This document shows positions 24,395-41,248 of a DNA stretch of 64,000 nucleotides, piece after piece (within the stretch, counting starts at the first letter, position 1; each line of letters begins with the position of its first letter). Where the stretch lies: assembly GCF_900109195.1 (NCBI RefSeq), contig NZ_FNZG01000002.1, positions 318,191-382,190 on the forward strand, in the 5' to 3' direction. Source of the DNA: Pseudooceanicola nitratireducens. GTDB taxonomy: Bacteria; Pseudomonadota; Alphaproteobacteria; Rhodobacterales; Rhodobacteraceae. A program made the position numbers and the translations under genes. The notes below the pieces were generated by a model that did no database searches, was not told the DNA's origin, and saw only the letters and a program-made list of their open reading frames with translations.

Positions 24395-25585
24395 TTAACG
24401 CTGCGCGTAGCGTGCGGCGGCGCGTCCGGCCCAGAGGCCGGTGGCGAGGCAGGCGGTCAGAAGATACCCGCCTGTCGGCGCTTCCCAGTCCAGCATCTCT
24501 CCGGCGGCGAAGGTGCCGGGGCGGTCGCGCAGCATCAGGCCCTCGTCCAGGTCGGACAGGCGCAGCCCGCCGGCGGTGGAAATCGCCTGCTCCATCGGCA
24601 TGGCCCCGTCATGGGGGATCGGCAGCGCCTTGAGCAGCGGGGCGATGTCGTCAGGCAGGGGACGACCGAATTCCATCAAAAGCGCGCGTTTCGCCGGGTC
24701 CAGCCGGATCGCACGGCGCAGGTGCGAGGCCAGGCTGTCGCCGCGCCGCCGCTTGGCCAGTTTCGCGCGCAGCCGGTCCAGCGGGATGTCGGGCACCAGG
24801 TCCATATGCAGGGCGGTGCCGTCGCGCAGGATATGCGACAGGGCGTAGATCCCCGCGCCCTCAAGCCCGCGGCGCGTGATGGTGCATTCGCCCCGGCTGA
24901 CCTCATCCCCGGCGCTCAGCGCAATGGATTTCAGCGGCTGGCCGAACTGCGCCTGCATATGGTCGGACCAGCGGATCGACAGGCCCACGTTGGCGGGCCG
25001 GAAGGGCGCGATGTCGAAATGCCGGGCCCAGATGCCGTCCGATCCCAGTCGCGGCCAGCTGGCCCCGCCAAGGGCCAGGACGGTGACATCGGGGGTGATG
25101 TCCTGCGGGCCATCGGGGGTTTCGAAGTGCAGCGTTGTGCGGGAAGCGGGGTCGGAGTTTGGGCCGGATTTTGGGCTGGACCAATCGGTCCAGCGCCAGC
25201 GGGTGCGCAGATCGACGCCCTTGTCGCGCAGCCGCGCCTGCCAGGCCCGCAACAGGGGCGAGGCCTTCATGACCTTGGGAAAGACGCGGCCCGTGGTGCC
25301 GGTGAACAGATCCTGCCCCAGGCCCTGCGCCCAGGCCTGGACGGCATCGGGTCCGAAGGCGTCCAGCATCGGGGACAGGGTCGACGCGGCCTCTCGGTAG
25401 GCGTCAAGAAAGGCGGGCAGGGGCTCGTCCTTGGTCAGGTTCAGCCCCGATTTCCCGGCCATCAGCAGCTTGCGCCCCAGGCTCGGCTTGGCCTCGGCGA
25501 CCATGACCTTCAGCCCGGCATCGGCCATCGCCTCTGCCGCCATCAGACCCGCCGGGCCGCCGCCTATGACCAATCCTACCGCCAT
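24395..25585 (-). CDS. HI0933/YhiN-family NAD(P)/FAD-dependent flavoprotein
   Basis: Flavoprotein of 396 residues. The N-terminal FAD motif is GLVIGGGPAGLMAAEAM (4-20), followed by GRKLLMAGKSGLNLT, the hallmark of the HI0933 family. The C-terminus has GEMLDWEAPTGGYLLTACLATG, which closes the FAD site. Function in the cell is unknown. ATG at 25585 was chosen; a TTG at 25621 would add 12 residues without any ribosome-binding site. Confidence 0.87.
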   Translation of the reverse strand: MAVGLVIGGGPAGLMAAEAMADAGLKVMVAEAKPSLGRKLLMAGKSGLNLTKDEPLPAFLDAYREAASTLSPMLDAFGPDAVQAWAQGLGQDLFTGTTGRVFPKVMKASPLLRAWQARLRDKGVDLRTRWRWTDWSSPKSGPNSDPASRTTLHFETPDGPQDITPDVTVLALGGASWPRLGSDGIWARHFDIAPFRPANVGLSIRWSDHMQAQFGQPLKSIALSAGDEVSRGECTITRRGLEGAGIYALSHILRDGTALHMDLVPDIPLDRLRAKLAKRRRGDSLASHLRRAIRLDPAKRALLMEFGRPLPDDIAPLLKALPIPHDGAMPMEQAISTAGGLRLSDLDEGLMLRDRPGTFAAGEMLDWEAPTGGYLLTACLATGLWAGRAAARYAQR

Positions 25586-25670
25586 TCGGGCGTTTCTGCT
25601 TTGCAGGCGACGGAAAGACAAGATGTCAAAGGGGGCGTGACGCGGGCGCGGCCAGGATTATCTTGGCGGC

Positions 25671-25814
25671 ATGAGCGACGATCCGATCTGCCCCCTCTGC
25701 CTGCGCCCGATCCCTGCGGACGCGCGGTCTTCGCTGCACCACCTTGTGCCGAAGCTGCGCGGCGGCAAGGGCGGGCCGACCGTGCGGTTGGATGAGATAT
25801 TGTGGTGGAAGTAG
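25671..25814 (+). pseudogene. HNH endonuclease, 5' half, interrupted
   Basis: The ATG at 25671 opens a short HNH nuclease: a CPLC zinc-type pair (residues 7-10), SLHHLVPK with the first catalytic histidine region (21-28) and GGKGGPTVRL (31-40). After residue 40 (base 25790) the match to the family ends and seven foreign codons lead to TAG at 25812. The other half resumes in frame at 26839. The intact protein would be about 98 residues. Broken by the insertion described next. Confidence 0.88.
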
Positions 25815-26838
25815 GAATTGGAGACACGGAGGAGGAATTTCGTAGTAAATAGGAGACTGGAAACTAACGGCGGGATTTTGCAGTGCTTGAGCGGTTTAGA
25901 GATGGCGTGTTTGCGGCTGGATTAACTGTTGGCGGAGGGTTGGCTATTGTCTCAGTTGTCTGGATTATTGGCTTGAATTATTGTCCTGCCGGCCCCTGTG
26001 GGTATGGCCAAGCGGAAAATGAAGTGGAGCAAAGCTCAGATCAGCGCGTCTGGCAAATGCCGGATGCCATACGGGGCACGTTTAGTTACGAGGCGGAGCC
26101 AGAATACAGTGAAGGCAAACCCAGCCTGTACGAATACTACGATTTGCGCGCCCAAGAGCGCATGGCGCACGCCACTGACTGGATCGCATGGCTGACTTTT
26201 GCCACTGGTTTATTTGGCGCGATGGGATTTTTTGCTCTGCTGTACACGTTGAAATTGCAGCGGACAGCCAATGACATCATGCTGAGGGATCAACGGCCAT
26301 GGTTGGATGTCAACATATCTCTCAGTGATTTCGTTTGGATTGATAAGAACTATGTTCAATTCGGGGGCGCGTATACAATTCGAAATTTTGGGAAAACCCC
26401 TTCGGAGTACGCTCAGGTGCGCGCGACCATTGCGAGGTGGAACGGTGTCTTCAACAGTGAAGCCTTCGTTGATTCCGCTTTGGCGATGAAAATCCCTCGA
26501 ACAAATTTGTTCTTGGGTGTTGTCTTTCAGGGGGAAAAGGAAGAGTCTGCTCCGATCAAAATCGGGGTTCCGGTGGTTGACCTTGTTGAAGATAATTCCG
26601 AGCAAGTGAACTATTCGCTATTGCTCTGGGCGGAGTATGGTGAAGGCAGCTCGTTTGTAACGAGAAAAATTTATGACGTTGAATTCGAGCACACCAATAC
26701 TTTCGCTGACGGCTTTTATGAACCAAGTCGCCTAAGGTTTGACCCCAGCCCGTTTGAGCACGCTCAGTACATGTAGTCAAAACTCAGAATAGATCATCGC
26801 TCCTCTAGGAGGGTTAGTACGTTTAATACACGACACCC
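25791..26838. mobile_element. Unclassified ~1.05-kb insertion carrying one ORF, inside the HNH gene
   Basis: DNA between the two HNH halves is plainly AT-richer than both flanks and uses A/T-ending codons. It contains one ORF (25883-26776) and short non-coding ends of 92 and 62 bases. No transposase, integrase, reverse transcriptase or homing nuclease is present, and no convincing terminal inverted repeats or target duplication were found. A short CTCCT/AGGAG hairpin is at 26808-26819. Boundaries are defined by loss of HNH similarity, so they may be a few bases off. Confidence 0.72.
25883..26776 (+). CDS. Unrecognised two-helix membrane protein inside the insertion
   Basis: A 297-residue protein from a GTG start; a TAA at 25865 blocks earlier starts. 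Two hydrophobic segments are visible, about 9-31 (AAGLTVGGGLAIVSVVWIIG) and about 102-124. Between them is a roughly 70-residue acidic loop. After the second helix comes LKLQRTANDIMLRDQRPWLDV and a C-terminal domain of about 150 residues with a beta-rich pattern. This TM-then-RPWL layout is common in island-borne hypothetical proteins. I do not recognise a function. No strong ribosome-binding site was seen. Confidence 0.7.
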   Translation: MLERFRDGVFAAGLTVGGGLAIVSVVWIIGLNYCPAGPCGYGQAENEVEQSSDQRVWQMPDAIRGTFSYEAEPEYSEGKPSLYEYYDLRAQERMAHATDWIAWLTFATGLFGAMGFFALLYTLKLQRTANDIMLRDQRPWLDVNISLSDFVWIDKNYVQFGGAYTIRNFGKTPSEYAQVRATIARWNGVFNSEAFVDSALAMKIPRTNLFLGVVFQGEKEESAPIKIGVPVVDLVEDNSEQVNYSLLLWAEYGEGSSFVTRKIYDVEFEHTNTFADGFYEPSRLRFDPSPFEHAQYM

Positions 26839-27012
26839 CAGATCTGCCACAACGAAATCCACGCCACGCTGACGGAAAGCGAACTGGCCCGCGACTATGA
26901 CACGCCCGAAAAGCTGCGCGCCCATCCCCGGCTGGCGAAATTCGCCGCCTGGGTGGCCAGGCGGCCGCCGGGTTTCCATTCCAAGACGCCGGGGCGCAGG
27001 CGGATGCGTTAG
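26839..27012 (+). pseudogene. HNH endonuclease, 3' half, interrupted
   Basis: Open frame of 57 codons beginning QICHNEIHATLTESELARD and ending RRRMR with TAG at 27010. It contains the second part of the HNH motif (CHNEIH) and the helical tail with FAAWVARRPPGFH. It continues the frame broken at 25790. It has no start codon of its own next to a ribosome-binding site, so it is probably not translated. Its end overlaps the convergent hydratase gene by four bases. Confidence 0.88.
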
Positions 27013-27617
27013 GTGCACATCCGCTTGATGCCGGCGGCGATCTCGGGCTTGGCGGCCAGGGTGTCGGCGCAGATCTCACGCGCCGTGTCCAGAAGCGCCT
27101 CGGGGGGGAGGATGCGGTCAATCAGGCCGAAGGACAGGGCCTCTTCGGTAGGGATCTTCTGGCCGCCCATCAGGATCAGTTTCGTGCGCGACGGGCCGAT
27201 CAGCGCGGCCATGCGGCCGGGGTCCGACGGCTGCGGCAGAAACCCCAGTTTCATCACGGGATAGAAGACCTTGGCCCCCGGCACGGCCAGCCGGATGTCA
27301 CAGGCCAGCGCCATGCCCATGGCCCCGCCCGCCAGCGTGCCGTTCAGCGCCGCGATGGTCAGGCCGGGCAGCGCCGCGATGGCCGAAGACAGCCGTTCCC
27401 AAAGGGGAGAGGTGGCGAGGCCGGCGCGTGCCTCGTCCAGGTCGGCACCGGCGGAAAAGACCTTGCCCCGGCCGGTCAGGATCACCGCGCGGGCGTCCTG
27501 CGCGCCCTCGAAGGTGGTGCAGAGGGTTTCCAGCATCTCGCCGGTCAGGGAATTGGCCTTGTCGGGGCGGTTCAGCGTGACGATCAGCAGGTCGCCGTCG
27601 CGGGTAACCTCGATCAT
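27009..27617 (-). CDS. Enoyl-CoA hydratase/isomerase family protein, short form
   Basis: Crotonase-fold protein of 202 residues, about 50 shorter than the usual 255; the C-terminal helical cap is reduced. The oxyanion-hole segments are recognisable: FSAGADLDE (53-61) and LNGTLAGGAMGMA (91-103). The glutamates used by classical hydratases are not evident after the second segment, so hydratase chemistry is uncertain. It overlaps the upstream SDR gene by four bases (ATGA), so they form an operon. Confidence 0.85.
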   Translation of the reverse strand: MIEVTRDGDLLIVTLNRPDKANSLTGEMLETLCTTFEGAQDARAVILTGRGKVFSAGADLDEARAGLATSPLWERLSSAIAALPGLTIAALNGTLAGGAMGMALACDIRLAVPGAKVFYPVMKLGFLPQPSDPGRMAALIGPSRTKLILMGGQKIPTEEALSFGLIDRILPPEALLDTAREICADTLAAKPEIAAGIKRMCT

Positions 27618-40675: not shown

Positions 40676-41248
40676 TCAGTCGTTGGATGCGTTTTCGCGT
40701 TCGCGTTCGGCCGGAACCTCACGCGGGGGGCGGCCGATAACATCGCGCAGGTCGTCCAGCTCGATGAAGTTGTCGGCCTGGCGGCGCAGCTCGTCCGAGA
40801 TCATCGGCGGCTGGCTGCGGATGGTCGAGACGACGGAGACCCGCACGCCCTGACGCTGAAGGCTTTCCACCAGCGGGCGGAAGTCGCCGTCACCGGAGAA
40901 GAGAACGATATGATCAACGCGCGGTGCCAGTTCCATGGCATCGACGGTCAGTTCGATGTCCATGTTCCCCTTGACCTTCCGACGCCCCATGCTGTCGGTG
41001 TATTCCTTGGCCGGCTTGGTCACCATGGTGAAGCCATTGTAGTGCAGCCAGTCCACCAGTGGGCGGATCGGGGAATATTCGTCGTTTTCGAGGATGGCGG
41101 TGTAGTAGAACGCGCGCAACAGCTTGCCGCGACGCATGAATTCTTGTCGCAGAAGCTTGTAATCAATATCGAAATTCAATGCCTTCGCGGCGGCGTAGAG
41201 GTTGGAGCCGTCGATAAATAAGGCTAACCTTTCGTCCTTGTAGAACAT
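40676..41248 (-). CDS. NYN domain (LabA/PIN-like) nuclease family protein
   Basis: A 190-residue protein of the NYN/LabA family, with a PIN-like fold. Likely catalytic acidic residues are D14 in LFIDGSNLY, D97 and neighbours in KGNMDIELTVDAM and D120/D122 in FSGDGDFRPL. It probably cuts or binds RNA; bacterial targets are little known. Divergent from folK across a 130-base, AT-richer intergenic region that must contain both promoters. Confidence 0.9.
   Translation of the reverse strand: MFYKDERLALFIDGSNLYAAAKALNFDIDYKLLRQEFMRRGKLLRAFYYTAILENDEYSPIRPLVDWLHYNGFTMVTKPAKEYTDSMGRRKVKGNMDIELTVDAMELAPRVDHIVLFSGDGDFRPLVESLQRQGVRVSVVSTIRSQPPMISDELRRQADNFIELDDLRDVIGRPPREVPAERERENASND

Follow-up and report, generated by a model that had tools for sequence, protein, structure and literature searches.

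The HNH gene (98 amino acids) found in the 64,000-nucleotide stretch of Pseudooceanicola nitratireducens analysed here, which we refer to as the window, is interrupted by an insert of 1,048 bp (25791..26838, + strand) that is most likely, judging from sequence comparisons, what is left of the right-hand part of an IS1595-family transposon carrying passenger genes. The octamer of the HNH gene in which it lies carries element ends in four genera, and a second site, in comM/yifB, has been struck in four genomes, with both orientations occurring at each of the two sites. Taken by itself, the insert is most likely an ordinary decayed transposon, and it is the recurrent insertion in two DNA-processing genes which we regard as the noteworthy part, beyond the decayed copy in the window.

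The split HNH gene and the insert

The N-terminal part of the HNH gene (25671..25790, + strand) runs over 40 codons from the ATG at 25671 to the TTG at 25788-25790, and its frame extends seven codons into the insert, where it ends at a TAG. The C-terminal part (26839..27012, + strand) reads CAG ATC TGC onward up to the stop codon at 27010-27012 and begins with the target octamer CAGATCTG (26839..26846, no strand assigned), which encodes part of the HQICHN motif and of which the copy to the right of the insert is the sole one left. The insertion place lies well within contig C18. The initial annotation had described an HNH gene split by an AT-rich insert of 1,048 bp with one long ORF, and this description is borne out by the relatives, in which the gene is uninterrupted. 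In detail, the 57-residue C-terminal part used as a query within the genus matched 14 of 22 genomes, one of which is that of the window, and when the other same-genus loci were aligned at the junction, as the annotation had proposed, all 13 were uninterrupted and the arrangement of the window was not found in any of them. Most of these orthologues encode Leu-His-Gln/His-Ile-Cys at this place; the junction in the window consists of TTG, the insert and CAG-ATC-TGC, and the His codon is gone. As the length of the insert is 3n+1 and one His codon is lost, the frame does not simply resume behind the insert as had been supposed, and the HNH reading frame is broken by it.

In the family as a whole, 182 of 365 genomes gave an HNH match. 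The window's own genome has two (best E-value 1.2e-34), neither as strong as that of an intact gene, and these are presumably the two gene halves. The match of the N-terminal part to the Pfam HNH model is weak (E 0.025, below the cut-off), and the intact orthologue L003 stays just below the cut-off of Pfam HNH as well. L003 matches the NCBIfam HlpB model with an E-value of 2.5e-15 and with 56.7 bits of the 130 set as cut-off, for which reason the HNH protein is considered a relative of HlpB and not a confirmed HlpB.

The G+C content of the insert is 49.1%, compared to 68.0% and 66.5% in the 2-kb flanks. It contains one long ORF of 297 amino acids with a GTG start (25883..26776, + strand), hereafter called the passenger, the remaining ORFs being of 131 amino acids at most. 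Hydrophobic stretches are visible by eye in the N-terminus of the passenger, and two membrane helices are predicted in its relatives at the loci L030 and L031. Searches against Pfam gave nothing above cut-off for the passenger, and no transposase was found among the ORFs of the insert, as the initial annotation had already stated. The passenger is 56% identical over its first 174 residues to a protein of genome G065, and 54% and 52% identical to those of L030 and L031, L031 being a contig of G065. Matches at E<=0.001 occur in 6 of 394 genomes of the family, counting its own; a search of the genome contig collection gave two loci (L030 and L031), and a search of the plasmid collection with the protein gave no match. 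In an alignment of the three sequences the N-terminal half is conserved and the C-terminal half divergent. The structure model obtained for the passenger was unusable (mean pLDDT 43).

To the left of the passenger, and overlapping it, lies what appears to be the decayed, frameshifted 3' part of a DUF6471 gene (25796..25925, + strand, TAA at 25923-25925), corresponding to about residues 31-74 of 74. In a frameshift-tolerant alignment, 25796-25922 matched residues 31-74 of the DUF6471 protein of L031 with a score of 45, compared to a mean of 23 and a maximum of 35 for 60 shuffles. When 18 DUF6471 proteins were aligned to the remnant in the window, 10 outscored all 60 of their shuffles and eight did not. 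The last 43 nt of the match are shared with the passenger ORF, and the distance between the DUF6471 stop and the passenger start (stop minus start) is 42.

At the opposite end, a right terminal repeat (26814..26838, - strand, outer end at 26838) agrees with the consensus of the family in 17 of 25 bases and lies exactly at the junction, but it can be recognised only by comparison with the relatives. The repeat is divergent: its profile score is 2.2, whereas none of the left ends of 24 elements scores below 38.2. Taken across the entire window such a score would be unremarkable, and it carries weight only because the place falls on the junction. Among some 128,000 places in the profile scan of the window it ranks second, and the maxima of 20 shuffled windows reached a mean of -1.4 and 8.3 at the highest. 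The profile scan found no left terminal repeat at the left junction, and the insert has no target duplication, the left octamer and a CAC being gone. The earlier statement that clear repeats and a duplication are missing holds for the second repeat and the duplication, whereas a divergent repeat is recognisable at the right end.

Copies of the insert at other loci, which the annotation had suggested looking for, were not found: the own genome gave no second copy but eight matches of 16-31 bp only, nor did it give a match to the IS1595 transposase model NF033547. The repeat core with up to two mismatches occurs in this genome in the window and at two further places with two mismatches each, a reversed control giving three places. 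With one mismatch allowed, the right-end core of the window was found in the 394 family genomes only in the window itself and at one place in G094. A separate place of the profile scan, at 41226, scores 9.1 and thereby above the real end; it falls inside an ORF that appears NYN-like by eye, in a less G+C-rich stretch. The ORF is unrelated and no second end was found, and the place was taken as chance.

Intact relatives and the origin of the insert

The relatives examined comprise 28 loci, namely L030, L031 and 26 from genomes of the family (L034, L035 and L069-L092). The transposase of L034 used as a query gave, at a threshold of E<=1e-60, 27 places in 26 genomes out of the 394 of the family. 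In L030 and L031 the relatives of the passenger adjoin an IS1595 transposase and are enclosed with it by inverted terminal repeats and 8-bp duplications, and these transposases match NF033547 (E-values of 4e-42 and 2e-41) as well as PF12762/PF12760 (only these two were tested). Both terminal repeats are present in 24 of the 28 loci; each of the remaining four is truncated by a contig end or could not be resolved. Perfect 8-bp target duplications flank 23 of the 24 two-ended elements. L088 has two repeats, a duplication in only 3 of 8 positions and a transposase with stops, and is possibly a rearranged copy.

These elements follow a fixed plan, in which the left repeat is followed by a small gene, in many cases by a left cargo gene and by the transposase on the minus strand, and then by DUF6471, the right cargo and the right repeat. 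A DUF6471 match beside the transposase is found in all 24 two-ended elements. The right cargo, as picked automatically, is in 10 of the 24 a membrane-type protein which overlaps the end of DUF6471, although in L035, one of the ten, a longer ORF on the minus strand competes with it. The overlap from its start to the end of DUF6471 measures 42 nt in eight of these elements, which is the spacing found in the window, and 39 nt in the other two. At the left end, the first ORF picked begins 51-71 nt from the outer end in 21 of the 24 elements; many of these small proteins are interrelated, and the one of L034 is weakly helix-turn-helix-like.

The left cargo includes a KilA-N protein (L069) and a Bro-N protein (L030), both with a BstA-like C-terminal part, Panacea (L076), an M78 peptidase (L078), PDC-M06B (L081), DUF3800 (L083) and a match to PBECR3 that is below cut-off (L073). 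In the right cargo, M78 (capP model, L073), NYN/HEC-09 (L092) and PDC-S42 (L071) were found. PADLOC, applied to 27 proteins representing part of the cargo, matched 7 of them at the thresholds used and gave no match for the passenger of the window or the related membrane passengers of L030, L034, L079, L082 and L084. By resemblance, some of the cargo genes look like phage-defence or toxin-antitoxin proteins.

With this anatomy in hand, we consider it very probable that an IS1595-family passenger transposon entered the octamer, that its left side was deleted later, and that an immobile relic remains. Judging from the intact relatives, a whole element would have inserted in CAGATCTG of the HNH gene. 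A later deletion, starting 11 bp beyond the left end of the element and stopping halfway through DUF6471, would then have taken with it the target copy, repeat and cargo of the left side together with the transposase and half of the DUF6471 gene; an intermediate of this deletion was not seen among the loci examined. What was left would be the immobile relic with a broken HNH frame and an open passenger ORF, and as the latter follows behind the HNH start and shares its strand, the HNH promoter could drive it. Since the window copy has no transposase ORF and its genome no NF033547 match, it has been classed as a remnant and not as an IS. The insert is foreign and now non-autonomous, as the initial annotation had suspected. 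The cargo swap by recombination that it had also offered is not needed; the insert looks like a truncated IS1595-family transposon.

Only 3 bp separate the left junction from the expected start of the octamer, a closeness that a large deletion at random would not necessarily produce, and a one-ended or aberrant transposition might therefore be considered, with the right repeat attached to the target and the left side severed by chance within DUF6471, so that the element would have arrived already truncated. We regard this as improbable, as the 8-bp duplication would still be expected but is not seen, with CAC and the left octamer gone, and as two repeats are the rule in the relatives. From the location of the insert inside a conserved catalytic motif, a mobile intron or a targeted element had been suspected. 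The targeted element is in keeping with the repeated strikes at the same spot described below. For a group I/II intron or another self-splicing element in the active-site codons there is hardly any likelihood left, given that an Rfam scan of 25500-27200 with E-values up to 5 gave nothing inside the insert, in accordance with the annotation, which had recognised no intron core; its sole match was a chance one to a miRNA model outside the insert. The long ORF, too, reached no Pfam cut-off by which a reverse transcriptase or homing nuclease would have been recognised.

An integron-type cassette that entered a secondary site is equally improbable. At the left, the junction GTTGGAT fits the integron core motif GTTRRRY, and the insert has a single long ORF, but the right junction does not go on with the TT of the target (junctions judged by eye), and the right end of the insert matches the transposon repeat. 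A MITE was ruled out because of the single repeat and the ORF of 297 amino acids.

Recurrent insertion in the HNH and comM/yifB genes

In G056, the orthologous HNH gene is occupied by the element L073, with CAGATCTG duplicated. When 394 genomes were searched for this octamer adjoining a repeat end, with up to three mismatches allowed, eight genomes gave a match. Three of them (G056, G191 and G255), which represent three genera other than that of the window, have exactly CAGATCTG, flanked in each case by the HNH halves; the other five are near-matches with different octamers. In G191 and G255, CAGATCTG is found at both repeat ends, which lie on separate contigs, and the elements have thus not been read through. 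In G191, both the transposase and DUF6471 are present. G255 is outside the 26 genomes with a transposase, and since its two end pieces contain neither of the two genes, only repeat ends are shown there; it perhaps represents another non-autonomous or an incompletely assembled element. The repeat ends of G255 are located on contigs C8 and C42 (L097 and L105). As the right repeat faces the C-terminal HNH part in the window and the N-terminal part in G056 and G191, at least two independent events must have taken place at this site. The transposase genes of G056 and G191 share 80.6% DNA identity.

Two HNH matches each were found in 6 of the 182 genomes with a match, namely the window's own, G056, G191, G255, G042 and G235, a count that can miss split genes with one half below the threshold. 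Seven genomes were re-examined for a split HNH gene, and the gene of G255 proved to be split by an element. No element was shown for the two matches of G042 and G235, the latter having one copy of full length beside a second, weak match, and in each of G028, G213, G259 and G282 there is a single match, partial or divergent. The HNH orthologue of G042 (contig C196, 3646-3916) shows as two weak matches side by side, which contain stops, and no element is visible there; this is possibly a case of gene decay by another route. Among 44 uninterrupted HNH loci (G013 counted twice), 31 have CAGATCTG, 11 a different octamer, and in two it was not located.

Comparing the flanks of the 24 elements revealed a second common target, shared by L078, L089, L090 and L092 from four genomes, with L078 in the orientation opposite to the other three. 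The target gene encodes the YifB/ComM AAA ATPase: a flank piece of L089 matches the Mg_chelatase and YifB models, the match to YifB being below the whole-protein cut-offs, and the assignment of L078, L090 and L092 is based on similarity. In all four elements the octamer spans the last two codons of LFLDE(L/F)PEF, the Walker B region. The genomes that have the HNH site occupied (the window's own, G056, G191 and G255) show one comM/yifB match each, which is open over 515-523 codons, and from this length the gene appears to be uninterrupted in them. L031 and L069, from different genomes, also have both flanks in common, with differing duplications.

The duplications show a weak palindromic consensus, GAAATTTC. 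Scored with an octamer profile made from 18 duplications, with HNH, comM and L088 left out, the HNH octamer comes out at the 99.5th percentile of the window and the one in comM of the own genome at the 99.86th. Within two HNH regions, the HNH octamer has rank 4 and 6 of 493. By extrapolation, these percentiles mean thousands of equal or better octamers per genome, and better-scoring ones exist even near the HNH site. Outside the HNH context, as judged by the neighbouring letters, CAGATCTG itself occurs four times in 432 kb of fetched DNA, or about 37 times per 4 Mb. As controls, the elements of G013 and G370 share the octamer CAAATATC and have no common gene flanks beyond one weak match (30% over 71 residues), and L069 and L074 are both at GAAATATC without common flanks. 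The octamer preference thus seems too weak to account for the recurrence alone: with this weak fit, and with pairs of equal octamers lying at differing places, something more is needed. This may be extra target features or selection which keeps insertions in these two genes.

When the flanks are joined, a spanning ORF of at least 70 amino acids is found at 19 of the 24 sites, five of them being HNH (one) and comM (four). Seven of the other 14 were tested in Pfam with one flank piece each and gave no match at E<=1e-4, L031, L034, L074, L076, L080, L083 and L088 standing outside this test; with seven of these 14 ORFs tested, HNH and comM are the only confirmed coding targets.

ComM has a function in the uptake and recombination of DNA, and the product of the HNH gene is related to a repair-linked protein. 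We tentatively put forward, as a possible though rather doubtful explanation, that an IS1595-type lineage with defence-like cargo might have a built-in preference for comM/yifB (at Walker B) and for the HlpB-like HNH nuclease (at HQICHN), that breaking these genes might hinder its removal by incoming homologous DNA, such as that of gene transfer agents, and that the window might contain an old scar of this. The idea of elements disabling their own removal routes could be tested with a small and simple transposon.

Comparison with known systems

An IS1595 family with passenger genes, the 'transporter IS', has reportedly been described by Siguier et al. 2009. In the parts of these sources that were available, the features of the family (PMC8101967) and its passenger-bearing members (PMC3129680, PMC8101967) resemble the intact relatives in the transposase domain, the GG-type tip of the repeats, the 8-bp duplications and passengers unrelated to transposition. 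The window copy differs from the family in lacking the transposase, the left repeat and the duplication. The fixed plan of the relatives (DUF6471, two cargo slots and recurrent targets) was not found in the portions of the IS1595 literature searched, and no mention of DUF6471 was found in the literature searched. This search did not pair IS1595 with comM or HNH, and no claim is made here that the targeting is new to the literature.

HlpB, whose model the intact orthologue L003 matches, yet with a bit score below the cut-off as given above, is according to the accessible text of PMC7317962 a stand-alone HNH protein of Bacillus subtilis encoded in an operon with addAB and sbcCD (study of Pediaditakis 2012, as cited in the part of PMC11352351 consulted). 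Excerpts of PMC10883770 and PMC6899734 state that ComM helps the entry of gene-transfer-agent DNA.

The interruption of competence genes, including comM, by mobile elements is described in the sections seen of Croucher et al. 2016 (PMC4774983), and AbaR islands in comM in those of PMC7508600. As far as these sections go, such elements are like the relatives found here in that they insert at the orthologous comM spot in different genera. They differ in that they use integrases, whereas here an IS1595-type DDE element is involved, with the HNH gene as a second target.
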